Part shown: piece by piece, positions 5,727-49,073 of the stretch | Layout: each line of letters begins with the position of its first letter | Numbering within the stretch: position 1 is the stretch's first letter | Assembly (NCBI RefSeq): GCF_003352065.1 | Contig: NZ_CP025803.1 | Location: 1,116,001-1,180,000 of the forward strand | Direction of reading: 5' to 3' | DNA length: 64,000 bases | Origin: Sulfitobacter sp. SK011 | Lineage (GTDB): Bacteria > Pseudomonadota > Alphaproteobacteria > Rhodobacterales > Rhodobacteraceae | Translations under genes and position numbers: made by a program | Notes under the pieces: generated by a model | Told to the model about the DNA's origin: nothing | The model's input: the letters and a program-made list of their open reading frames with translations, nothing else | The model's database searches: none

Positions 5727-7016
5727 ATGTTTGATCTGATCGTAAAAGGTGGAACCCTACCGGATGGCCGGGTGACCGACATCGGCATTGCAGATGGCAA
5801 GATCACGGCCATGGACCACCTCACGGATGCCGACGCCGCCGAAGTGATTGACGCGCAGGGCGATCTGGTCAGCCCACCCTTTGTCGACCCGCATTTTCAC
5901 ATGGATGCCACGCTGAGTTACGGCACCCCGCGCATCAACGCCTCTGGCACGCTGCTTGAAGGGATCGGGCTTTGGGGCGAACTGAAACAAGTGATGACGC
6001 AGCAAGAGGTTTATGACCGCGCTTTGGCTTATTGCGATTGGGCGGCGTCCATGGGGTTGTTGGCGATCCGCAGTCATGTGGACACCTGTGATGACAGGCT
6101 GCTGGGCGTTGAGGCGTTGCTGGAGGTGCGCAAGGCGGTGGCGGGGTACATCGACCTGCAACTGGTCGCGTTCCCCCAAGACGGGCTTTACCGCGATCCA
6201 ACTGCGTTTGCGAACACGCTGCGCGCGCTAGATCTGGGCGTTGATGTGGTGGGCGGGATTCCACATTTTGAACGTACCATGGCAGACGGTGCACGATCGG
6301 TCACTGCTTTGTGCGAGATCGCGGCGGAACGTGGTCTGATGGTGGACATGCATTGCGACGAAACCGATGATCCGCAGTCGCGGCATATCGAGACGCTGAC
6401 ATTTGAGACACAGCGGTTGGGGCTGCAGGGCAGGGTGGCGGGATCGCACCTTACATCAATGCATTCGATGGACAATTATTACGTTAGCAAACTACTGCCC
6501 CTGATGGCAGAGGCTGAAGTGGCCGCCATCCCGAACCCCCTGATCAACATCGTGTTGCAGGGGCGTCACGACACCTATCCCAAACGGCGCGGGTTGACGC
6601 GCGTGAAGGAAATGCAGGCGCTGGGCATCACGGTGGGGTGGGGGCAGGATTGCGTGATGGACCCCTGGTATTCGATGGGTACCGCGGACATGCTCGATGT
6701 GGCGTTCATGGGTCTGCACGTGGCGCAGATGACGTCACCTGACGAAATGCGGCGCTGCTTTGATATGGTGACAAATGTGAATGCGTCGATCATGGGGTTG
6801 CAAGACTACGGTCTGCGGGTCGGGGCCAAAGCGTCGCTGGTGGTGTTGGATGCGGGCAATCCGATCGAAGCGTTGCGTCTGCGGCCAGATCGGCTGTGCG
6901 TGATTGCGAAAGGCAAGGTGATATCGCGCCAGAGCCGCAATGATGCGCGCCTTGATTTGTCGGGACGCCCTGCAAGCGTGCGCCGCCGTCATAAGGCGCA
7001 TTCGCAACCCAGCTAG
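5727..7016 (+). CDS. Cytosine deaminase-like amidohydrolase (CodA family)
   Basis: Metal-dependent amidohydrolase of 429 residues, close to the 427 of E. coli CodA. Metal and substrate motifs match the cytosine deaminase branch: DPHFHMDATLSYG (HxH plus conserved Asp), HCDETDDPQSR, SHLTSMHSM and GQDCVMDPWYSMGTADML. The reaction is probably deamination of cytosine or another hydroxylated nitrogen ring such as isoguanine or creatinine; the exact substrate is not readable. The start follows the permease stop codon without a gap and has AAGGGGAACGG upstream. Sitting at the end of a nucleobase-type ABC operon, it likely processes the imported compound. The 3' end overlaps the convergent kinase gene by 4 bp (CTAG). 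Confidence 0.85.
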   Translation: MFDLIVKGGTLPDGRVTDIGIADGKITAMDHLTDADAAEVIDAQGDLVSPPFVDPHFHMDATLSYGTPRINASGTLLEGIGLWGELKQVMTQQEVYDRALAYCDWAASMGLLAIRSHVDTCDDRLLGVEALLEVRKAVAGYIDLQLVAFPQDGLYRDPTAFANTLRALDLGVDVVGGIPHFERTMADGARSVTALCEIAAERGLMVDMHCDETDDPQSRHIETLTFETQRLGLQGRVAGSHLTSMHSMDNYYVSKLLPLMAEAEVAAIPNPLINIVLQGRHDTYPKRRGLTRVKEMQALGITVGWGQDCVMDPWYSMGTADMLDVAFMGLHVAQMTSPDEMRRCFDMVTNVNASIMGLQDYGLRVGAKASLVVLDAGNPIEALRLRPDRLCVIAKGKVISRQSRNDARLDLSGRPASVRRRHKAHSQPS

Positions 7017-29807: not shown

Positions 29808-32768
29808 TTATTTTCCTTTAACTGTCAGCGCATCATCGACGAGGGCTGCTTGTTGTGCTTTGTGTTGTGAGGCCAGACCCGTTGCAGGTGACGCGGCGGT
29901 GGCGCGCCCTGCATAGGCGGTGCGGCCATGTTTGGCTTTGATCCGGCCCAGAACCCATTCAATGTTGGGTTCAATGAACGACCAAGCGCCCTGGTTTTTG
30001 GGTTCTTCCTGACACCAGACCATTTCGGCACTCTTGAAGCGTTCCAGTTCCTTGACCGCTGATTGCGCGGGGAAGGGATAGAACTGTTCAAAGCGCATGA
30101 GATAGACGTCATCAATGCCGCGCGCGTCGCGTTCCTCTAGCAGGTCGAAGTAGACCTTGCCGGAACACATCACCACCCGCTTGATCTTGTCGTCCGCGAC
30201 CAGCTTGGTGTCTGAATTGCCTTGCTGTGCGTCATCCCACAGGACCCGGTGAAACGATGAACCTGTGGTGAATTCCTCGGCCTTGCTGACGGCCAGCTTG
30301 TGGCGCAGCAGGGACTTGGGGGTCATCAGGATCAGCGGCTTGCGGTAGCTGCGGTGCAATTGGCGGCGCAGGATGTGGAAATAATTCGCGGGGGTGGTGC
30401 AATTGGCCACGATCCAGTTGTCGCCGCCGCACATGGTCAGGAACCGTTCCAACCGCGCAGAAGAGTGTTCGGGGCCCTGGCCTTCGTAGCCGTGGGGCAG
30501 CAGGCACACCAAGCCCGACATGCGCAGCCATTTGCTTTCGCCTGAGCTGATGAACTGATCAAACATGATCTGTGCACCGTTTGCGAAATCGCCAAACTGC
30601 GCCTCCCATAGCGTCAGCGCGTTGGGTTCGGCCAGTGAATAGCCATACTCAAATCCAAGCACCGCATATTCCGACAGCATTGAATCGATGACTTCGTATT
30701 CTGCCTGCCCCTCACGGATGTGGTTCAGCGGGTAATAGCGTTGTTCGTTTTCCTGATTGATCAGCGCGGAGTGGCGTTGGCTGAACGTGCCACGGGCGCT
30801 GTCCTGTCCGGCAAGGCGCACTTTGTACCCTTCGGTCAGCAGCGATCCGAACGCCAGTGCTTCGCCGGTGGCCCAGTCAAAACCAGTCCCGGTTTCAAAC
30901 ATTTCGCGTTTGGTATCGAGCAGGCGACCGACGGTCTTGTGCAGCGGAAAACCATCGGGCGCTGTGGTCAGCGCCTTGCCGACCTCCGCCATGGTTTCCT
31001 TTTTGATCGCGGTCTTGCCACGCTGGTACTTCTTGTCCTGCTTGTCCAGATGGGACCATTTGCCATCCAGCCAATCGGCCTTGTTGGGACGGTAGTCTTT
31101 GCCCGCTTCAAATTCCTCGCTCAGATGTTCCTGAAACGCGGCTTTCATGTCCTCGATCTCGCCTTCGGGGATCAGCCCGTCCTTGACCAGACGTTCGGTA
31201 TAAAGTGTGAGTGTGGTTTTGTGCTGTTTGATCTTTTTGTACATCACCGGGTTGGTGAACATCGGCTCGTCGCCTTCGTTGTGACCAAAGCGGCGGTAGC
31301 AGATCATGTCGATCACCACGTCCTTGTGGAACTTTTGACGGAATTCGGTGGCGACACGGGCGGCATGCACAACCGCTTCCGGGTCGTCGCCGTTGACGTG
31401 AAAAATCGGGGCCTCGACCACCAGCGCGTTGTCGGTGGGATAGGGTGAGGAGCGGCTGAAGTGTGGCGCGGTGGTAAAGCCGATCTGGTTGTTGACCACG
31501 ATATGCATAGTACCGCCGGTGCGGTGGCCGCGCAGGCCCGAAAGCGCGAAACATTCCGCTACAACGCCCTGTCCGGCAAAGGCCGCATCGCCGTGCAGCA
31601 GTATGGGCATGACCGCACCGCGATCCTTGTCTTTGAGTTGATCCTGTTTTGCGCGGACCTTGCCAATGACGACGGGGTTGACCGCCTCAAGGTGGCTGGG
31701 GTTGGCGGTCAGCGACAGGTGCACGCTGTTGCCGTCAAATTCGCGGTCGCTGGAGGCACCAAGGTGGTATTTCACATCGCCCGAGCCATCGACGTCTTCG
31801 GGTTTGAACGATCCACCCTGAAATTCGTTGAAAATCGCGCGGTAGGGTTTTTGCATGACATTGGCCAGCACCGACAGGCGGCCCCGGTGCGGCATGCCGA
31901 TCACGATGTCGCGCACGCCAAGGCTGCCGCCGCGTTTGATGATCTGTTCCATCGCCGGCACAAGGCTTTCGCCGCCATCAAGGCCAAAGCGTTTGGTGCC
32001 CATGTATTTGACGTGCAGGAATTTCTCGAAACCTTCAGCCTCGACCAGTTTCGACAGGATCGCCTTGCGCCCGTTTTTGGTAAACTCGATTTCCTTGCCC
32101 AGACCCTCGATCCGTTCCTTCAACCAACCTGCTTCTTCGGGGTTTGAGATATGCATGTATTGCAAGGCAAAGGTGCCGCAATAGGTCCGTTTCACGATGT
32201 CCAGAATCTGGCGCATCGTTGCGACCTCAAGGCCCAGGACGTTGTCGATAAAGATCGGGCGGTCCATGTCAGCGTCGGAAAAGCCGTAGGATTTGGGGTC
32301 AAGTTCCGGGTGCGGCGTGGTCTGGCGCATGCCCAGCGGGTCAAGGTCAGCAACCAGATGGCCGCGAATACGGTAGGCGCGGATGATCATCAGAGCGCGG
32401 ATGCTATCGAGCACCGCCTCTTTGACGGATGCATCGGAGACTTCGACGCCTTTCTCGGCGGCTTTTGCCTTGATCTTGTCGCCTGCGGCCTTGGCCTCGG
32501 TTGGTTCGGGCCAAACGCCGGTGAGGGCACCCATGACCTCGCCATTTGGGGTGGGCGGCCAATCGGAGCGCGCCCAAGAGGGGCCTGCGGCCTCGGCCTG
32601 TGCCACGCCATCATCGTCGCCCATTGCCTTGAAGAAGGCCTGCCATGCTTCGTCCACCGCATTCGGGTCATTGGCATAACGGGCATACATATGTTCGAGG
32701 TATTCCGCGTTCTCGCCTTCCATGAAGGACGAAGCGTGGAACTGGTCGTTGGCTGGTTGGTTGGTCAT
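29808..32768 (-). CDS. sucA: 2-Oxoglutarate dehydrogenase E1
   Basis: Thiamine diphosphate-dependent decarboxylase of the 2-oxoglutarate dehydrogenase complex, 986 residues. Seen: N-terminal E2-binding segment ASFMEG...[27 protein letters not shown], the ThDP motif [13 protein letters not shown] running into NNQIGFTT, and [21 protein letters not shown] (given in parts: [20 protein letters not shown]). The start at 32768 (MTNQPANDQ) has AAGGTG upstream; a longer reading to 32861 has no ribosome-binding site and an atypical leader. It follows the DUF805 gene by 32 nt. Confidence 0.96.
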
Positions 32769-32800
32769 TTTGGCACCTTTTCTAGACGCACGCGTGAGGG

Positions 32801-33256
32801 TCAGGCCGCAGGTGGCGGACCGTAGGCATTTGTTTCGGGTTGTGAGGGTCGGGTCAGCCACCAGATAAAGACTACAGCGATGACAATGCCAATGATCGAG
32901 AGCAGGCCGCCAAAAAGAGCGCCGCCAACCGATGGCATTTCCGTTGGCATTCCAGTTGCTTCGTCAAGTTCGTAACTGCCAAAGCCAAAGCTGCGCAGGG
33001 CAAGATTGTAGACAGACGGGATGACAAAGTACCAACCCGGCTTGCCGATATCCTGCATTCTTCGAAAGCCGACGGCAAGCAGCGGTAGAAACACAGCTAA
33101 AGCGTAGAGGATCGGGAGCAGCGGGACCAACATGACAACCATCGCGCCGATGATATAGGCCAGCATGAACCACCAGAATTCGGACCGCGATGCACGCCCC
33201 TGAAAGGTCATGTATTTTTTGGTCAGGCAGGTTCTTACCGACGTCTGAAAATCCAT
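32801..33256 (-). CDS. DUF805 membrane protein
   Basis: 151 residues, three or four membrane helices. KYMTFQGRASRSEFWWFML is the DUF805 opening pattern, followed by AYIIGAMVVMLVPLLPILYA and VGFRRMQDIGKPGWY. It lies inside the suc run between sucD (34 nt) and sucA (32 nt), which is unusual for an unknown membrane protein. The role is unknown. Confidence 0.8.
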   Translation of the reverse strand: MDFQTSVRTCLTKKYMTFQGRASRSEFWWFMLAYIIGAMVVMLVPLLPILYALAVFLPLLAVGFRRMQDIGKPGWYFVIPSVYNLALRSFGFGSYELDEATGMPTEMPSVGGALFGGLLSIIGIVIAVVFIWWLTRPSQPETNAYGPPPAA

Positions 33257-33290: not shown

Positions 33291-34178
33291 TTACCCCTTC
33301 TCAATCGCTTCCTTGACCGCCTCGCCCAGCGTCGCAGGGCTGTCGGCTACGACAATGCCTGCCGCGCGCATGGCTTCGATCTTGTCTTCGGCACCGCCTT
33401 TGCCACCTGCAACGATGGCACCCGCGTGGCCCATGCGGCGGCCAGGAGGGGCGGTGCGGCCCGCGATGAAACCAGCGGTGGGTTTCCAGCGGCCTGCTTT
33501 TTTCTCGTCCGCGAGAAACTGGGCCGCGTCTTCTTCTGCCGAACCACCAATTTCGCCAATCATGATGATTGATTTGGTCTCAGGATCGGCGAGGAACATT
33601 TCCAAAACGTCAATATGTTCGGTGCCTTTGATCGGATCGCCGCCGATGCCGACAGCCGATGACTGTCCATAACCCAAATCGGTGGTCTGCTTGACCGCCT
33701 CGTAGGTCAGCGTGCCCGAGCGCGAGACAACACCGCAGGACCCGCGTTTGTGGATATGGCCGGGCATGATACCAATTTTGCAGGCGTCGGGCGTGATCAC
33801 GCCGGGGCAGTTTGGACCAATCAGCCGCGACTTTGAGCCTTGCAGCGCGCGCTGAACGCGCATCATGTCCAGAACCGGGATGCCTTCGGTGATGCAGACG
33901 ATCAGTTCCATCTCGGCATCGATCGCCTCAAGGATGGAATCGGCAGCAAAAGGCGGTGGGACATAGATCACCGAGGCGTTGGCCTGCGTCACATGTTTCG
34001 CCTCGTGAACCGAGTTGAACACCGGCAGATCAAGATGGGTCTGGCCGCCTTTGCCGGGGGTCACACCGCCCACCATTTTGGTGCCATAGGCAATCGCCTG
34101 TTCGGTATGGAACGTGCCCTGAGACCCGGTAAGGCCCTGACAGATGACTTTGGTGCTTTCGTCTACGAGTACGGCCAT
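33291..34178 (-). CDS. sucD: Succinyl-CoA ligase, alpha subunit
   Basis: ADP/GDP-forming succinyl-CoA synthetase alpha chain, 295 residues (E. coli 289). CoA-binding N-terminus [24 protein letters not shown]-type segment [32 protein letters not shown] and the phospho-His region [14 protein letters not shown] are present. Start at 34178 (MAVLVDEST) with AAGGAA 5 bp upstream. It is separated from sucC by a small secreted-protein gene. Confidence 0.96.
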
Positions 34179-34317
34179 GATTATTTCCTTCGAGTGGTAT
34201 TTGATGCCGCGAGGTGCGGCGTAATGGTGGACGGCGCAGCAGCACCGCGTTGATTGGATATTGGGATGGGTATGGGGCGAACGATCCTGTGGGCGGGATG
34301 TGACAGCATCATCTGCA

Positions 34318-34839
34318 TTATCCTTCGACTTTCGGCAGGCCCAGACCGTCATAAAGACGGTCCACTGCCATGAATGTATGAAGGGTATCATCGGTTTTGC
34401 GGGTGCCAACATGCACAACGGCCACACGCCCACGCAAGAGTTCGCGGCCCTCGATCAGGGCTGTGCCAGCGGTTGGCTGGTGGGTATCAGGCAAGGGGAT
34501 TTTTTTGCCAAAGACCGGCGGTGTCGCCATCTGCATGCGCATCGCCTTGATCGCGGGGGCGGTGTGGTCGCCCTCAAATGCCACCTCGCAGCGTCGTTCG
34601 ATGCCAAGCGGGGCATCCACCGGGCGCGGCTCAAGGCTGTCATCCCAGAAGGTGAGGGTGAACGCGGGCGGGACACCGTTGGTTACCCCCATATTTTCGC
34701 GCGCCTGCGCCTCTGTCTGACCAGCCTTGAAGCACCAGGTGTTGAAGGCAGAGATTGCGGAGTCAGAAGCAAAGGCAGGACTGGCGAACATCATCCCGGC
34801 GACTGCGAAAGCCAAGGCCCTTTTCTGGGCGGCACGCAT
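34318..34839 (-). CDS. Exported protein of unknown function inside the suc operon
   Basis: 173 residues from [18 protein letters not shown], a signal peptide with cleavage near SPAFA-SD. The mature part has two Cys (NTWCFKAGQ and ERRCEVAF) that could form a disulfide, and motifs [20 protein letters not shown] and [18 protein letters not shown]. It lies 77 nt after sucC and 139 nt before sucD. I do not recognise the family; a periplasmic protein between two subunits of one enzyme is odd. The start could be upstream at 34911, but that reading lacks a signal-peptide-like beginning. Confidence 0.65.
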
Positions 34840-34916: not shown

Positions 34917-36110
34917 CTACCCCTTAACCGCCTTCACGATTTTTTCAGCACCGTCTTTGAGGTCATCGGCCGCGATCACATCAAGACCGCTTTCATTGAT
35001 GATCTTTTTGCCCTCGGCGACCTTGGTGCCTTCCAGACGCACAACCAATGGTACTTTCAGGCCGACCTCTTTCACAGCAGCCACAACGCCTTCGGCGATC
35101 ACATCACAGCGCATGATGCCGCCAAAGATGTTGACCAGAATGCCTTTGACCTGCGGGTCAGAGGTGATGATCTTGAACGCTTCGGTGACTTTTTCCTTGG
35201 TCGCGCCGCCGCCCACATCAAGGAAGTTGGCAGGCTCGGCCCCATAAAGCTTGATGATGTCCATCGTCGCCATTGCGAGGCCCGCGCCGTTGACCATGCA
35301 CCCAATCTCACCGTCCAGCGCAATGTAGTTCAGGTCGTATTTGGACGCCTCAAGTTCCTTGGGGTCCTCTTCGGTCACATCGCGCAATTCAGCGATATCG
35401 TTGTGGCGATACATGGCGTTGCCATCAAAGCTGACCTTGGCATCGAGCACCTTGAGATCCCCGGTGTCGGTGACGATCAGCGGGTTGATTTCGAGCATTT
35501 CCATGTCTTTTTCGATGAATGCCTTGAACAAGATACCCATCAGAGACACGCATTGCTTGACTGCTTTGCCTTCGAGGCCCAGCGCAAACGCAACGCGACG
35601 GCCATGGAACGGCTGATATCCGGTCGCGGGATCAACGGAGAAATTGATGATTTTTTCAGGCGTGCTTGCCGCGACTTCTTCGATGTCCATGCCGCCTTCG
35701 GTAGAACAGACAAAGCCGACGCGAGACGACTGGCGGTCCACCAGCAGGGCCAGATAGAGTTCGGTTTCAATGCCGGCACCGTCTTCGATATAGACGCGGT
35801 TGACTTGTTTGCCTGCTGGCCCGGTCTGGTGCGTGACCAAAGTGCGGCCAAGCATTTTCTTGGCTTCCTGGGCGGCTTCTTCCACTGATTTGGTCAGGCG
35901 CACCCCGCCTTTGTCGCCTGCGTCAGCTTCTTTGAATTTGCCTTTGCCGCGGCCACCTGCATGGATTTGCGCTTTGACCACCCAAAGGGGCCCGTCTAAT
36001 TCACCGGCGGCTGATTTCGCTTCTTCGGCGCGCATCACGACGCGGCCATCAGAGACAGGGGCACCAAAGCTGCGCAGAAGGGCTTTCGCCTGATATTCGT
36101 GGATGTTCAT
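34917..36110 (-). CDS. sucC: Succinyl-CoA ligase, beta subunit
   Basis: 397 residues with an N-terminal ATP-grasp domain. [39 protein letters not shown], then [15 protein letters not shown] and [19 protein letters not shown] with the C-terminal [17 protein letters not shown]. Partner of SucD for substrate-level phosphorylation. First gene of the suc run; the paired TGTGATCACA sites lie 112 to 141 bp upstream of its ATG. Confidence 0.97.
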
Positions 36111-36221
36111 AAAAAACTGTCCCGTTTTTGTTCAAGTCACCTCGCAGTATGCGAGTGAGTCTTATCGCTCGGTTAACAGTTTTTCGCAGTATTGGGGGGA
36201 TTGCCAGACAAAAGCGACATT

Positions 36222-36251
36222 TGTGATCACACCGGAAATGCTGTGATCACA
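36222..36251. promoter_or_regulatory. Twin palindromic operator upstream of sucC (two TGTGATCACA, 20 bp apart)
   Basis: TGTGATCACA at 36222-36231 and 36242-36251, a 10 bp gap, centre-to-centre 20 bp, so both face the same side of the helix. Read toward sucC, the second copy is part of GTGTGATCACAAAT, identical in the sdh copy. The same pair with the same spacing lies upstream of sdhC at 44300-44329. Confidence 0.75.
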
Positions 36252-36467: not shown

Positions 36468-37001
36468 ATGTTCGACGTCGATAGATTTATCGCTGACTGC
36501 TGCGAGGCGGTCGAAAAGGACCCAACTCACAAATCGGCTGCGGAAGTCGTGCGCCGGGCAATGTCCGATCCTTGGAAAATACTCGACGCGCTGGGAGAGC
36601 CGACAGAGCCTGGCATCACACCACTCTATCAATCCCCGAAGCTGACAATAATCAACCTTGCCTGGAAGCCATCCACGACCATACCGCCTCACAACCACGA
36701 TATGTGGGCTGTCATTGGTATTTATGGGGGCCGAGAGGACAATATATTTTGGCGTCGCATCAAGGATCATCCGGATGGTTTGATCGAAGCGGCTGGTGCA
36801 AAATCTCTTTCGACCGGTGATGTATGCCCAATGGGTGCGGATATTATCCACTCTGTCACCAACCCGATCCCCCGCCTCACGGCAGCATTGCATGTTTATG
36901 GTGGCGACTTCTTCGAGGCGGAACGCAGTGAATGGGAGGCCGAGGGTTTGACCGAACACCAACTCGACATAGAAGCAGTGCGGGCAAGGTTTTCCAATTA
37001 G
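36468..37001 (+). CDS. Cysteine dioxygenase-like cupin protein
   Basis: 177 residues of the double-stranded beta-helix, thiol-dioxygenase-like group. TTIPPHNHDMWAVIGIYGGR gives the two-His cluster of the mononuclear iron site, and GADIIHSVTNP supplies the third His. The substrate could be cysteine, mercaptopropionate or another thiol; not decided by sequence. Start ATG has GGAGG 7 bp upstream. The gene is on the opposite strand to both neighbours, with its own promoter region, and its codons (ATA, AGG, ATT, CGG-rich mix) differ somewhat from the TCA genes, a weak hint of separate origin. Confidence 0.75.
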   Translation: MFDVDRFIADCCEAVEKDPTHKSAAEVVRRAMSDPWKILDALGEPTEPGITPLYQSPKLTIINLAWKPSTTIPPHNHDMWAVIGIYGGREDNIFWRRIKDHPDGLIEAAGAKSLSTGDVCPMGADIIHSVTNPIPRLTAALHVYGGDFFEAERSEWEAEGLTEHQLDIEAVRARFSN

Positions 37002-38445: not shown

Positions 38446-39003
38446 TCAGACGGGAAAGGGCGATACACCCAGCCACGCGTGGATGGCGATGATCACGACC
38501 GTGATAACCGCAGTGATCACAGCCAGACGAATGTAGGTCGCGCGGCCTGCGGGGGCGGGGGCGACCCAATGCGGCTCTGCCCGGTTGATCAGGATGACCG
38601 ACCCAACGGCCCAGGCCAGCATTGTGCCAAAGAGCAGGATCGACGCCAGATCCCCATTGACCAGCAAATGCGAGAAGGCCCAGATTTTCACGGCCAACAG
38701 CTGTGGGTGCCGGGTTTTGTAGGCGGGCCACGCCTTGGCCCCTTTGGCGGCCGACGAGCCATAGACCCAAAGCGCGAGGATCATCAGTGTGTTGTTGATA
38801 TGGGTGAAGAAGGCTGGCGGTGACCAGACGTGGATGAAAGGTGCCCAGCGATAGCCAAAGATGATAAGCAAAAGCGCCGCAACCACGCTAAGCGCCACCA
38901 GACCTTTGCCGGTATCGCCTAGTTTCATCCGCTGACGCGGCATCAGCCGTTTGAAATAATGTGCGCCGACCCATAGGGCCAAACCGATGATCAACAGTGC
39001 CAT
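38446..39003 (-). CDS. NnrU-family membrane protein
   Basis: 185 residues with five or six membrane helices. LLIIGLALWVGAHYFKRLMP near the N-terminus, GYRWAPFIHVWSPPAFFTHI, and RHPQLLAVKIWAFSHLLVNG fit the NnrU family, some of which are linked to nitrite/NO respiration and others resemble isoprenylcysteine methyltransferase-like proteins. It starts 4 nt after mcl2 ends. The presence of an NnrU protein in an EMC operon is conserved in my recollection of R. sphaeroides (two genes between mcl2 and mch there). Confidence 0.75.
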   Translation of the reverse strand: MALLIIGLALWVGAHYFKRLMPRQRMKLGDTGKGLVALSVVAALLLIIFGYRWAPFIHVWSPPAFFTHINNTLMILALWVYGSSAAKGAKAWPAYKTRHPQLLAVKIWAFSHLLVNGDLASILLFGTMLAWAVGSVILINRAEPHWVAPAPAGRATYIRLAVITAVITVVIIAIHAWLGVSPFPV

Positions 39004-43627: not shown

Positions 43628-44296
43628 ATGCGCCGCCTTTTTGCTTTACTCTTTGTCCTTTTGCCCAGTGTCGCATGGCCGTGCGAATTGGCGCTGGTGC
43701 TGGCCGTGGATGTTTCAGGGTCGGTCGACCGCGATGAATACCATGTGCAAATGGACGGGCTTGCCTTTGCCCTGCGCGACAGCATCGTTGCAGATGCGTT
43801 GGTCGATCAAAAGGCTGCGGTGACCTTGATCCAATGGTCAGGATCATCTCGTCAGGAACAAACCGTACCCTGGACACGCATCGCATCGTTGGGCGATGTG
43901 GATGCCCTGGCGCGCGCCATTGCGGATGATCCTCGGAAGTGGCGCAATTATTCCACGGCAATCGGAGAGGTCTTGGGTCTGTCGATCAAAAGCTTTGCAA
44001 AAGGTCCGGAATGTGGCCGCAAGGTGATTGATGTGTCGGGTGATGGTGTCTCAAACGAAGGGGTCGAACCGCATGACATGCGCGCCGCGCTGCGCGATGG
44101 CGGCGTCGTGGTAAATGCTTTGGCCATTGAGACAGATGGTGCCGATCTGACCGCTTACTTTTACGAAAATGTCATTGAGGGCGAAGGCGCATTTGTGATC
44201 ACCGCCAATGGGTTCGAGGATTACCCGGCCCAGATCAAACGCAAATTGCAGCGCGAAACCACCAAGCAATTAAGCATGCTGACATCAGGCGAATGA
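43628..44296 (+). CDS. DUF1194 exported von Willebrand factor A-like protein
   Basis: 222 residues. N-terminal signal MRRLFALLFVLLPSVAWP. ELALVLAVDVSGSVDRDEY is the VWA fold opening with a MIDAS DxSxS motif, followed by KVIDVSGDGVSNEGVEPH. Family DUF1194 is common in Rhodobacterales. Likely binds a metal-dependent partner in the periplasm; partner unknown. Convergent or divergent neighbours are none: it lies between mdh and the sdh operon on the same strand. Confidence 0.85.
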   Translation: MRRLFALLFVLLPSVAWPCELALVLAVDVSGSVDRDEYHVQMDGLAFALRDSIVADALVDQKAAVTLIQWSGSSRQEQTVPWTRIASLGDVDALARAIADDPRKWRNYSTAIGEVLGLSIKSFAKGPECGRKVIDVSGDGVSNEGVEPHDMRAALRDGGVVVNALAIETDGADLTAYFYENVIEGEGAFVITANGFEDYPAQIKRKLQRETTKQLSMLTSGE

Positions 44297-44297
44297 T

Positions 44298-44329
44298 CCT
44301 GTGATCACAGGTCAATTCGTGTGATCACA
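44298..44329. promoter_or_regulatory. Twin palindromic operator upstream of sdhC (two TGTGATCACA, 20 bp apart)
   Basis: The first site, CCTGTGATCACAGG (44298-44311), is a perfect 14 bp palindrome with core TGTGATCACA at 44300-44309. The second core is at 44320-44329. Spacing is exactly 20 bp centre to centre, as for the pair upstream of sucC. The sites lie 141 to 172 bp before the sdhC ATG and directly after the DUF1194 stop codon. Confidence 0.75.
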
Positions 44330-44469
44330 AATTCCATGATTGAGATAAGTATCTGCATTTTTCTGCCCAACTGCGGCAATAAAGCGGAGTTCTGATGCAT
44401 CTGCCCCCGTGACAGTCCTGTAAAAAGCGCTATCAAGTAGGCAACGCTAGCCGACAAAGGACCTGAACA

Positions 44470-44853
44470 ATGGCCGATGTGAACCGGGGCAATCGCCCGC
44501 TAAGCCCGCATTTGACAATCTACCGCCCGCAGCTGACGTCGATGACGTCGATCCTGACGCGCATCACCGGCAACGCGTTGCTGGTCGCGGCCCTGTTGAT
44601 TGTGTGGTGGTTTCTGGCCGCAGCGACATCACCGGGATACTTTGACTTTGTGAACGGATTCATTACCAGCTGGTTTGGTGATCTGATCATGTTCCTGTCG
44701 GTATGGGGTCTTTGGTATCACACGCTGGCTGGTTGCCGGCATCTGGTCTGGGACAACGGCTATGCCCTCGACATACCCACGGCGGAAAAGCTGGGCTGGG
44801 CGGTGATCGCAGGGTCCGTTGTTCTGACCCTTCTCACCGTCATCATCGTATAA
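44470..44853 (+). CDS. sdhC: Succinate dehydrogenase cytochrome b556 subunit
   Basis: 127 residues, three membrane helices. N-terminal RPLSPHLTIYRPQLTSM then ILTRITGNALLVAALL is the SdhC signature; GLWYHTLAGCRHLVWDNG carries the haem-ligand His. It anchors SdhAB and binds haem and quinone with SdhD. First gene of sdhCDA-x-x-sdhB. Confidence 0.95.
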   Translation: MADVNRGNRPLSPHLTIYRPQLTSMTSILTRITGNALLVAALLIVWWFLAAATSPGYFDFVNGFITSWFGDLIMFLSVWGLWYHTLAGCRHLVWDNGYALDIPTAEKLGWAVIAGSVVLTLLTVIIV

Positions 44854-45266: not shown

Positions 45267-47072
45267 ATGGCCGCATATGAATATGAAACGCACGAATATG
45301 ATGTGGTTGTCGTGGGGGCCGGTGGTGCCGGTCTGCGCGCGACCCTTGGCATGGCAGAGCAGGGGCTGCGCACTGCGTGTATCTCCAAGGTTTTTCCAAC
45401 CCGCTCGCATACTGTAGCCGCTCAAGGCGGCATCGCCGCGTCGCTGTCGAATATGGGGCCCGATAATTGGCAGTGGCATATGTATGACACGGTCAAAGGA
45501 TCCGATTGGCTGGGCGATACCGACGCGATGGAATATTTGGCCCGCGAGGCCCCCAAGGCGGTGTATGAGCTTGAACATTATGGCGTGCCGTTTTCGCGCA
45601 CTGAAGAGGGCAAGATTTACCAGCGGCCCTTTGGTGGTCATACAACCGAATTCGGTGAAGGCCCGCCGGTGCAGCGCACCTGTGCCGCTGCCGACCGCAC
45701 GGGCCATGCGATTTTGCACACGCTCTATGGCCAATCGCTCAAGAATAACGCGGAATTCTATATCGAGTATTTCGCCATTGATCTGATCATGTCGGATGAT
45801 GGTGTCTGTCAGGGTGTGCTGTGTTGGAAGCTGGACGATGGCACCATGCATTTGTTCAGTGCCAAGATGGTGGTGCTGGCGACGGGCGGCTATGGCCGCG
45901 CCTATTTCAGCGCCACGTCCGCGCATACCTGTACCGGTGACGGCGGCGGTATGGTCGCACGTCAGGGGCTGCCATTGCAGGATATGGAGTTTGTCCAGTT
46001 CCACCCAACGGGTATCTACGGCGCTGGGTGCCTGATCACCGAAGGGGCCCGGGGCGAAGGCGGGTATCTGACCAATTCTGAGGGCGAGCGGTTCATGGAA
46101 CGCTATGCGCCAACCTATAAGGACCTTGCCAGCCGCGATGTTGTCAGCCGTTGCATGACGATGGAAATCCGCGAAGGCCGCGGCGTGGGCGAAAACAAGG
46201 ACCACATCCATCTGCACCTCAATCACCTGCCGCCCGAAACGCTGGACCTGCGCCTGCCGGGTATCTCTGAATCTGCGCGCATCTTTGCGGGTGTGGACCT
46301 GACCAAGGAACCGATCCCGGTCTTGCCAACGGTGCATTACAACATGGGCGGTATCCCCACGAACTATTGGGGTGAGGTGTTGAACCCGACGAAAGACAAG
46401 CCAGACGCAATTTCACCGGGGCTCATGGCTGTCGGCGAGGCGGGCTGTGCGTCGGTGCATGGGGCCAACCGTTTGGGCTCAAATTCACTGATTGATCTGG
46501 TGGTCTTTGGCCGTGCCGCGGCGATCCGGGCGGCAGAGATTGTCGATCCGAAAACCGCTGTGCCCACGCCAAATCAGAAATCCGTCGATGCGGCGTTTGA
46601 TCGCTTTGACGGGCTGCGCAATGCGTCGGGCGGTGTGCCGACGGCGGACCTGCGTCTGGAAATGCAAAAGACCATGCAGGCCGACGCGGCGGTGTTTCGC
46701 ACTGACAAGACGCTTGAAGAAGGCCGGGTCAAGATGATCGAGGTTGCCGACAAGCTGGACGATGTGAAGGTCACGGACCGATCACTGGTGTGGAACTCTG
46801 ATCTGATGGAAACGCTGGAACTGGCCAACCTGATGCCCAATGCGACCGCGACCATCACCGCCGCTGCGGCGCGCAAGGAAAGCCGGGGTGCCCATGCCCA
46901 TGAGGATTATCCGAACCGCGACGACAAGGAATGGCGCAAGCACAGCCTTGCCACTTTTGACGGCAACAAGGCCAAGTTGAGCTATCGTGATGTGCATCTC
47001 AAACCACTGACCACACAGAAAGAAGGCGGGATTGATCTTAAGAAAATCGCGCCAAAAGCAAGGGTGTACTGA
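45267..47072 (+). CDS. sdhA: Succinate dehydrogenase flavoprotein subunit
   Basis: 601 residues. FAD-binding [32 protein letters not shown] with the His that carries covalent [23 protein letters not shown] near the succinate site, and [17 protein letters not shown]. Oxidises succinate to fumarate and passes electrons to the iron-sulfur subunit. The 3' end overlaps the next gene as ATG in the TGATG junction at 47072. Confidence 0.97.
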
Positions 47073-48293: not shown

Positions 48294-49073
48294 ATGGTTC
48301 AACTGACGCTCCCCAAGAATTCTCGTATGACAACCGGGAAGACGTGGCCGAAACCATCAGGGGCCAGCAATGTCCGCGAATTCCACGTGTATCGCTGGAA
48401 CCCCGATGACGGCAAGAACCCGGCCATCGACACCTACTTTGTCGATATGGACACCTGCGGTCCGATGATCCTGGACGCGCTGATCAAGATCAAGAACGAG
48501 ATTGATCCGACGCTGACTTTCCGCCGGTCCTGCCGCGAGGGCATTTGTGGTTCTTGCGCGATGAACATCGACGGCATCAACACGCTGGCCTGTACGTACG
48601 GTATGGAAGAGATCAAAGGCGTGGTGAAAATCTATCCGCTGCCGCATATGCCTGTGGTCAAGGATCTGATCCCGGACCTGACGCATTTTTATGCCCAGCA
48701 CGCGTCGGTGCAGCCGTGGCTGGCCACGGAAACGCCTGCCCCTGCCAAAGAGTGGAAGCAGTCGATTGAGGACCGGACCAAACTGGATGGCCTTTACGAA
48801 TGTATCATGTGTGCCTGCTGTTCGACATCTTGCCCCAGCTATTGGTGGAACGGCGACCGTTACCTTGGGCCAGCAGCACTGCTGCATGCCTATCGCTGGA
48901 TCATTGATTCACGCGACGAGGCGACGGGTGAGCGGTTGGATGACCTTGAGGATCCATTCAAGCTCTATCGCTGTCACACGATCATGAACTGCGCCAAGAC
49001 CTGCCCCAAGGGCCTGAACCCCGCAGAGGCGATTGCAAACATCAAAAAGCTGATGCTGGAACGGACGGTCTAG
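48294..49073 (+). CDS. sdhB: Succinate dehydrogenase iron-sulfur subunit
   Basis: 259 residues. [2Fe-2S] ligands [16 protein letters not shown], [4Fe-4S] [17 protein letters not shown] and [3Fe-4S] [17 protein letters not shown] are all complete. AAGGAGACGCG precedes the ATG. It is separated from sdhA by two genes, the lipoprotein and the methyltransferase, which all lie on one strand with small gaps. Confidence 0.97.

Follow-up and report, generated by a model that had tools for sequence, protein, structure and literature searches.

Twin palindromes upstream of sucC and sdhC in Sulfitobacter sp. SK011 are very probably paired operators of the GntR-family regulator AkgR

Within the 64,000-nucleotide stretch of Sulfitobacter sp. 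SK011 DNA analysed here (hereafter the window; contig NZ_CP025803.1, positions 1,116,001 to 1,180,000), the same twin palindrome stands upstream of both sucC and sdhC, which raises the question of what reads it and whether the two gene clusters are controlled together. The elements that bear on this question, with the palindromes labelled by the regulator to which we very probably assign them, are as follows.

36242..36251, minus strand: distal predicted AkgR site of the sucC pair (TGTGATCACA; conserved pair)
36222..36231, minus strand: proximal predicted AkgR site of the sucC pair (TGTGATCACA; conserved pair)
36170..36189, minus strand: match to the conserved element downstream of the sucC pair (family consensus gcAAAAa.cCgTTTa)
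34917..36110, minus strand: sucC, succinyl-CoA synthetase beta subunit (NCBIfam; start codon 112 nt from the proximal core)
33291..34433, minus strand: ORF with sucD, succinyl-CoA synthetase alpha subunit (NCBIfam match)
29808..32861, minus strand: sucA, 2-oxoglutarate dehydrogenase E1 (NCBIfam; downstream of sucC on the same strand)
44300..44309, plus strand: distal predicted AkgR site of the sdhC pair (TGTGATCACA; conserved pair)
44320..44329, plus strand: proximal predicted AkgR site of the sdhC pair (TGTGATCACA; conserved pair)
44409..44414, plus strand: predicted sdhC -35, GTGACA (conserved motif, 81 nt after the proximal core)
44431..44436, plus strand: predicted sdhC -10, TATCAA (16 bp after the -35)
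44470..44853, plus strand: sdhC, succinate dehydrogenase cytochrome b556 subunit (first gene of the sdh cluster; NCBIfam)
45267..47072, plus strand: sdhA, flavoprotein subunit (NCBIfam)
48294..49073, plus strand: sdhB, iron-sulfur subunit (NCBIfam)

The names sucC and sdhC, assigned in a preliminary description of this DNA, are right by their NCBIfam model matches, and Mdh and an SdhD-like anchor are also encoded, on the same kind of match as SucD and SucA. Two neighbouring genes can be noted in passing: an ORF divergent from sucC (36468-37001, plus strand) has a cupin-like appearance by eye but matches nothing in Pfam or NCBIfam at E 0.001, and 3 bp separate the stop codon of a DUF1194/VWA-domain gene (43628-44296, plus strand) from the distal sdhC site.

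The preliminary description had reported four exact copies of the palindrome in two equally spaced pairs, and its coordinates are borne out: exact TGTGATCACA occurs at 36222-36231 and 36242-36251 on the sucC side and at 44300-44309 and 44320-44329 on the sdhC side, with a centre-to-centre spacing of 20 bp within both pairs. Each copy is a perfect palindrome whose half-sites abut without a spacer, and each contains the core GTGATCAC, the motif in print for AkgR sites. Read toward the gene, the first site is TGTGATCACAG and the second GTGTGATCACAAAT at both loci, in the order originally claimed. The expectation of 0.06 copies per 64 kb, from which chance had been discounted, is correct if base composition is even and a palindromic 10-mer is counted a single time. 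Shuffling leads to the same judgement: the window holds eight matches to TGTGATCACA with at most one mismatch, where shuffled sequences average 2.36 (sd 1.51) and none of 100 reaches eight. The exact count had been right for the window, and the near matches do lie inside ORFs, but the positions given for them were off by one base (they are 38512-38521 and 44194-44203) and two further one-mismatch matches, at 6087 and 50265, had gone unnamed. Sites for CRP (TGTGA-N6-TCACA) and FNR (TTGAT-N4-ATCAA) have spaced half-sites, whereas those of the palindrome abut, and the early dismissal of both regulators was sound.

The whole genome, a single contig of 4,190,786 bases, contains seven exact copies of TGTGATCACA; the three beyond the window's four are all unpaired, and the exact pair, TGTGATCACA-N10-TGTGATCACA, occurs solely upstream of sucC and upstream of sdhC. 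One of the unpaired copies, at contig position 3896312, is followed 8 bp later by the start codon of a gene that encodes a GntR/FCD protein (3895656-3896300, minus strand), the candidate akgR of this genome, whose product combines a GntR domain (PF00392, E 2.2e-13) with an FCD domain (PF07729, E 8.2e-17). The other two are side observations: the copy at 972909 is in an ORF beside transposase-like ORFs, and that at 2261855-2261864 (L008 1501-1510) falls at the 5' end of a sufB-like ORF (judged by eye), where chance is possible. Because the bare 8-mer GTGATCAC occurs 186 times in the source genome, a scan for regulon members by single cores is uninformative; we dropped it and used strict pairs instead.

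We take RSP_0981 to be the AkgR of Rhodobacter sphaeroides, whose activation of TCA genes Imam, Noguera and Donohue are said to have tested in that organism in 2015 (mBio). The GntR regulator RSP_0981 is predicted to control sucCD, sdh and sucAB (PMC4344238), and GTGATCAC is the motif among the binding sites of R. sphaeroides AkgR (PMC6365646), so that the system described here resembles the R. sphaeroides regulon in protein family, core and targets alike. Synteny by way of a further genome, G046, suggests that the source-genome regulator may be the orthologue of RSP_0981. One 17-kb stretch of G046 carries sucC, mdh, sdhC, sdhA, sdhB and then the orthologue, with pairs before sucC and sdhC; the order fits that of the locus tags RSP_0967, 0968, 0974-6 and 0981 (PMC4344238). 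The G046 protein is 78% identical to the source-genome protein, is encoded 0.76 kb from sdhB, and has its best match among 80 named loci in Cereibacter ovatus, at 96% identity. The layouts differ in that akgR stands beside sdhB in G046, whereas in the source genome it lies at 3.90 Mb, far from suc and sdh at 1.15-1.16 Mb; set against the R. sphaeroides regulon, the source akgR also has a single core at its start. The proposal of a shared candidate regulon is supported, but it was not new, the regulon being already known as that of RSP_0981/AkgR (PMC4344238, PMC6365646). Regulator, targets and core are published, and the source genome adds to a known regulon.

Orthologues were sought by searching the encoded protein against 150 Rhodobacteraceae genomes of at least 90% completeness. 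The matches fall into two separated tiers, the first at E <=3.3e-78 and 63-100% identity and the second consisting, among the matches listed, of another GntR protein at about 40% identity and E >=2.8e-48. We define an AkgR orthologue as a first-tier match, with the threshold placed in the gap between tiers after that gap was visible. By this definition the orthologue is absent from 15 of the 150 genomes (G004, G013, G016, G018, G025, G043, G049, G054, G076, G092, G093, G100, G105, G106 and G147); with the G046 protein as a second query, only relatives of at most 43% identity were found in G018, G049, G105 and G106. Across 241 alphaproteobacterial genomes the pair is present in all 4 Rhodobacteraceae (source included) and in 2 of the 237 others, and the orthologue tier was seen only in the 4 Rhodobacteraceae.

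To follow the pair itself, regions were picked by protein and not by motif. SucC was located in 145 of the 150 genomes, with no match at threshold in G032, G056, G065, G106 and G139; stretches of up to ~17 kb upstream were taken for all 145, and a pair was scored at no more than two mismatches in total and a spacing of 20 or 21 bp. Of the 131 genomes that have an AkgR orthologue, 130 carry a sucC pair (128/128, plus 2/3 among five genomes added to the set); of the 14 that do not, 2 carry one (1/12, plus 1/2 among those added). Where sdhC falls within the stretch, its pair is found in 100/105 genomes with AkgR and in 1/4 without, that one being G105. A pattern search for exact copies at centre spacings of 10-40 found a pair in 135 of the 150 genomes; of the other 15, 13 have no AkgR, G035 carries pairs that are inexact but keep to the mismatch limit, and G139 is one of the genomes with no SucC match.

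The co-occurrence of pair and regulator is thus strong but imperfect, and the exceptions run both ways. Five genomes with AkgR have no sdhC pair, two of which, G094 and G011, retain one exact core. In G123, AkgR is present and the pair is missing before the sole SucC match, which is 64-68% identical to the source SucC and may not be the orthologue. Conversely, G018, a draft rated 91% complete, has a sucC pair and no detected AkgR, and G105 keeps both its sucC and its sdhC pair intact (L362), its best GntR relative being 39% identical. The G105 assembly is rated 100% complete, in 320 contigs and with 3% contamination; either akgR is missing from the draft or the pair has another reader there. 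One lineage at least has retained the pair with no regulator detected.

Shared ancestry was taken into account with a tree of four concatenated proteins (141 rows), on which pair and akgR change together in 5 of 8 independent contrasts, with no difference in 3 and the opposite in none (p 0.0625). An earlier tree of the same four proteins in 136 rows, made quickly and with warnings of long branches meeting and of 29 rows under half filled, left out the five added genomes and gave 6.0 of 7 contrasts the same way and none opposite (p 0.031). Two of the added genomes go against the rule (G105 and G123) and three go with it, and it is because of their inclusion that p is no longer below 0.05. With the roles exchanged, so that the pair defines the contrasts, akgR goes the same way in 4.9 of 5; a tree of SucC only, with 100 rows, yields 3 contrasts. 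From these contrasts, the direction of the co-loss of pair and regulator is well supported, short of formal significance.

The spacing within the pair is rigid. In 2.2 Mb around the suc and sdh genes (140 stretches) there are 562 exact cores, and the exact pairs that they form at centre spacings of 9-40 bp (n=222) comprise 195 at 21 bp and 25 at 20 bp, against one each at 13 and 34 bp. The outer flanks are A/T-rich, most commonly TTT before the distal core and AAA after the proximal one, and are stricter at sucC than at sdhC. Far from being frequent and unrelated to metabolic genes in related genomes, the outcome that the preliminary description had set against its own reading, the pair is near-universal at sucC and sdhC where the regulator is present, and when 20 genomes were searched in full, 18 of which had been picked for having at least three hits at looser spacing, 17 had two strict pairs and no more, and G145 had one. 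Additional sites occur in two others: upstream of sucC, G122 (L215) has a third core, making three in a row at 21 bp, and G037 (L346, 1501-1529) has a third strict 21-bp pair ~124 bp before fumC, the product of which matches class II fumarase FumC and which would be a third TCA target there. The named loci L260 and L270 contain two overlapping pairs each.

Alignment of the sdhC upstream regions reveals a conserved promoter, CGTGACA-N16-TAnnAA, which is matched with at most two of its 11 fixed positions wrong in 76 of 100 regions and in none of 108 shuffled regions. It mostly stands at one distance from the pair, and where it does not, it keeps the helical phase. In 68 of the 76 well-matched promoters there are 58-62 nt from the proximal core to the start of the -35, and the remaining eight distances (37, 49, 50, 50, 71, 72, 80 and 81) share the helical phase of the main cluster, with p ~2.5e-4 at 10.5 bp against uniform positions, a value that ignores kinship among the genomes, is similar at a period of 11 bp and weakens away from it. 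When weaker promoter matches are included, giving 15 outliers among 90 (with distances of 6 and 8 among them), p is ~7e-4. The window's own sdhC promoter has no mismatch in the 11 positions and lies at +81, two turns beyond the usual distance. Upstream of sucC, no standard -35/-10 emerged from the alignment; a conserved AAAAA..C.TTT element follows the pair at about +37 to +39 (near +29 in a sub-group) and is perhaps part of the sucC promoter. Downstream of the pair, 29 of 99 sdhC upstream regions (L094-L233) also contain GCGCCAA, mostly ~24 nt after the pair and often within a longer stretch like GCGCCAAAAAACCGCGC, and a minority of pairs have CceR-like half-sites (TTAGCGC, CGCTAAC) nearby.

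A different arrangement is seen at the regulator's own gene. Among the 30 genomes nearest to the source, which is itself counted, 28 have a single exact core just before akgR and none has a pair there; the core stands most often (13/28) 20 nt before the aligned second residue. Of 79 usable loci in the named set, which centres on Rhodobacter relatives, just 15 have an exact core in this place, and the akgR core is therefore lineage-dependent.

Could something other than activation by AkgR account for these pairs? That the repeats are hairpins, transposon ends or products of chance rather than protein sites agrees with each being a perfect palindrome, yet the rigid 20/21-bp spacing, the retention of the sucC pair in 130 of the 131 genomes with the regulator, and the result that 0 of 618 random 500-nt stretches of the same loci (true pairs excluded) hold a pair at up to two mismatches leave this reading next to no probability. 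A different dimeric regulator might instead occupy the pair, be it the second GntR paralogue, a CRP/FNR protein or CceR. The source genome does have 24 GntR-domain matches, including an AkgR paralogue at 39% identity, and in G105 and G018 the pair occurs alongside distant GntR relatives alone; however, 12 of the 14 genomes without the orthologue lack the sucC pair while all 12 except G147 have other GntR matches, and CRP half-sites stand six bases apart, as against zero in TGTGATCACA. CceR is predicted to regulate sdh and mdh too (PMC4344238), but its motif as published there, [AGT]GTT-N6-8-AAC[ACT], is absent from the palindrome. With neither GTT nor AAC in TGTGATCACA, we rejected CceR sites as an explanation, and a reader other than AkgR appears very improbable overall.

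AkgR itself might also act in the opposite sense, binding the pair to repress suc and sdh until a metabolite releases it. Many GntR regulators do repress; the lone core at the akgR start, moreover, resembles a repressing position. Against this, at sdhC the pair stands well clear of the promoter, upstream of the conserved -35, and is mostly helix-phased with it, and R. sphaeroides AkgR is termed a transcriptional activator (PMC6365646). We regard repression through the pair as unlikely.

Several known systems resemble the proposed AkgR system in part. In class I activation by CRP, dimer sites likewise lie upstream of the -35 at helix-phased distances, but the protein belongs to another family and CRP half-sites are separated by six bases where those of TGTGATCACA have none between them. 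The best sequence match to the regulator among solved structures is E. coli McbR (PDB 4p9f, E 3.1e-20), also of the GntR family but a distant relative only, with other targets than AkgR. A closer likeness in DNA is offered by the GntR-like PS417_07240 of Pseudomonas simiae, which is 32% identical to AkgR and has the same palindrome core, GTGATCAC, upstream; unlike the pairs described here, the one site described for it is at its own deoxyribonate gene cluster (PMC6365646).

Taken as a whole, these comparisons indicate that the twin palindromes upstream of sucC and sdhC are very probably AkgR operators. One AkgR dimer would occupy each palindrome, and two dimers 20-21 bp apart, or two helical turns, would lie on one face of the DNA and might bind cooperatively; a shared suc and sdh regulon with one dimer per palindrome and two on the same face is also what the preliminary description had envisaged, and the comparative evidence fits it. 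From upstream of the -35, the dimers would activate the suc and sdh promoters jointly, as the description of R. sphaeroides AkgR as an activator suggests (PMC6365646), and a lone dimer at the akgR start would block expression of akgR itself. We have high confidence in this explanation, in which AkgR dimers bound to the pairs on one face would activate suc and sdh together. We are evenly divided on a stricter grammar, in which a pair locked two turns apart would be required to activate TCA operons, the promoter distance could shift by whole turns only, the lone site would repress akgR, and a new gene such as fumC would join the regulon by gaining a whole pair. A search of the AkgR/RSP_0981 literature, taken as the reports other than the main 2015 AkgR paper, found no account of the paired spacing, the helix phasing at sdhC, the lone akgR site or the gain at fumC.

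For the Rhodobacteraceae, a large and ecologically important family, the arrangement ties two consecutive TCA steps to one GntR regulator, and perhaps 2-oxoglutarate dehydrogenase as well, by way of the suc cluster. Its strict pairs, its promoter distance in helical phase and the lone site at akgR together make a clean, testable case in which a GntR/FCD protein may activate from one arrangement of its sites and repress from another.
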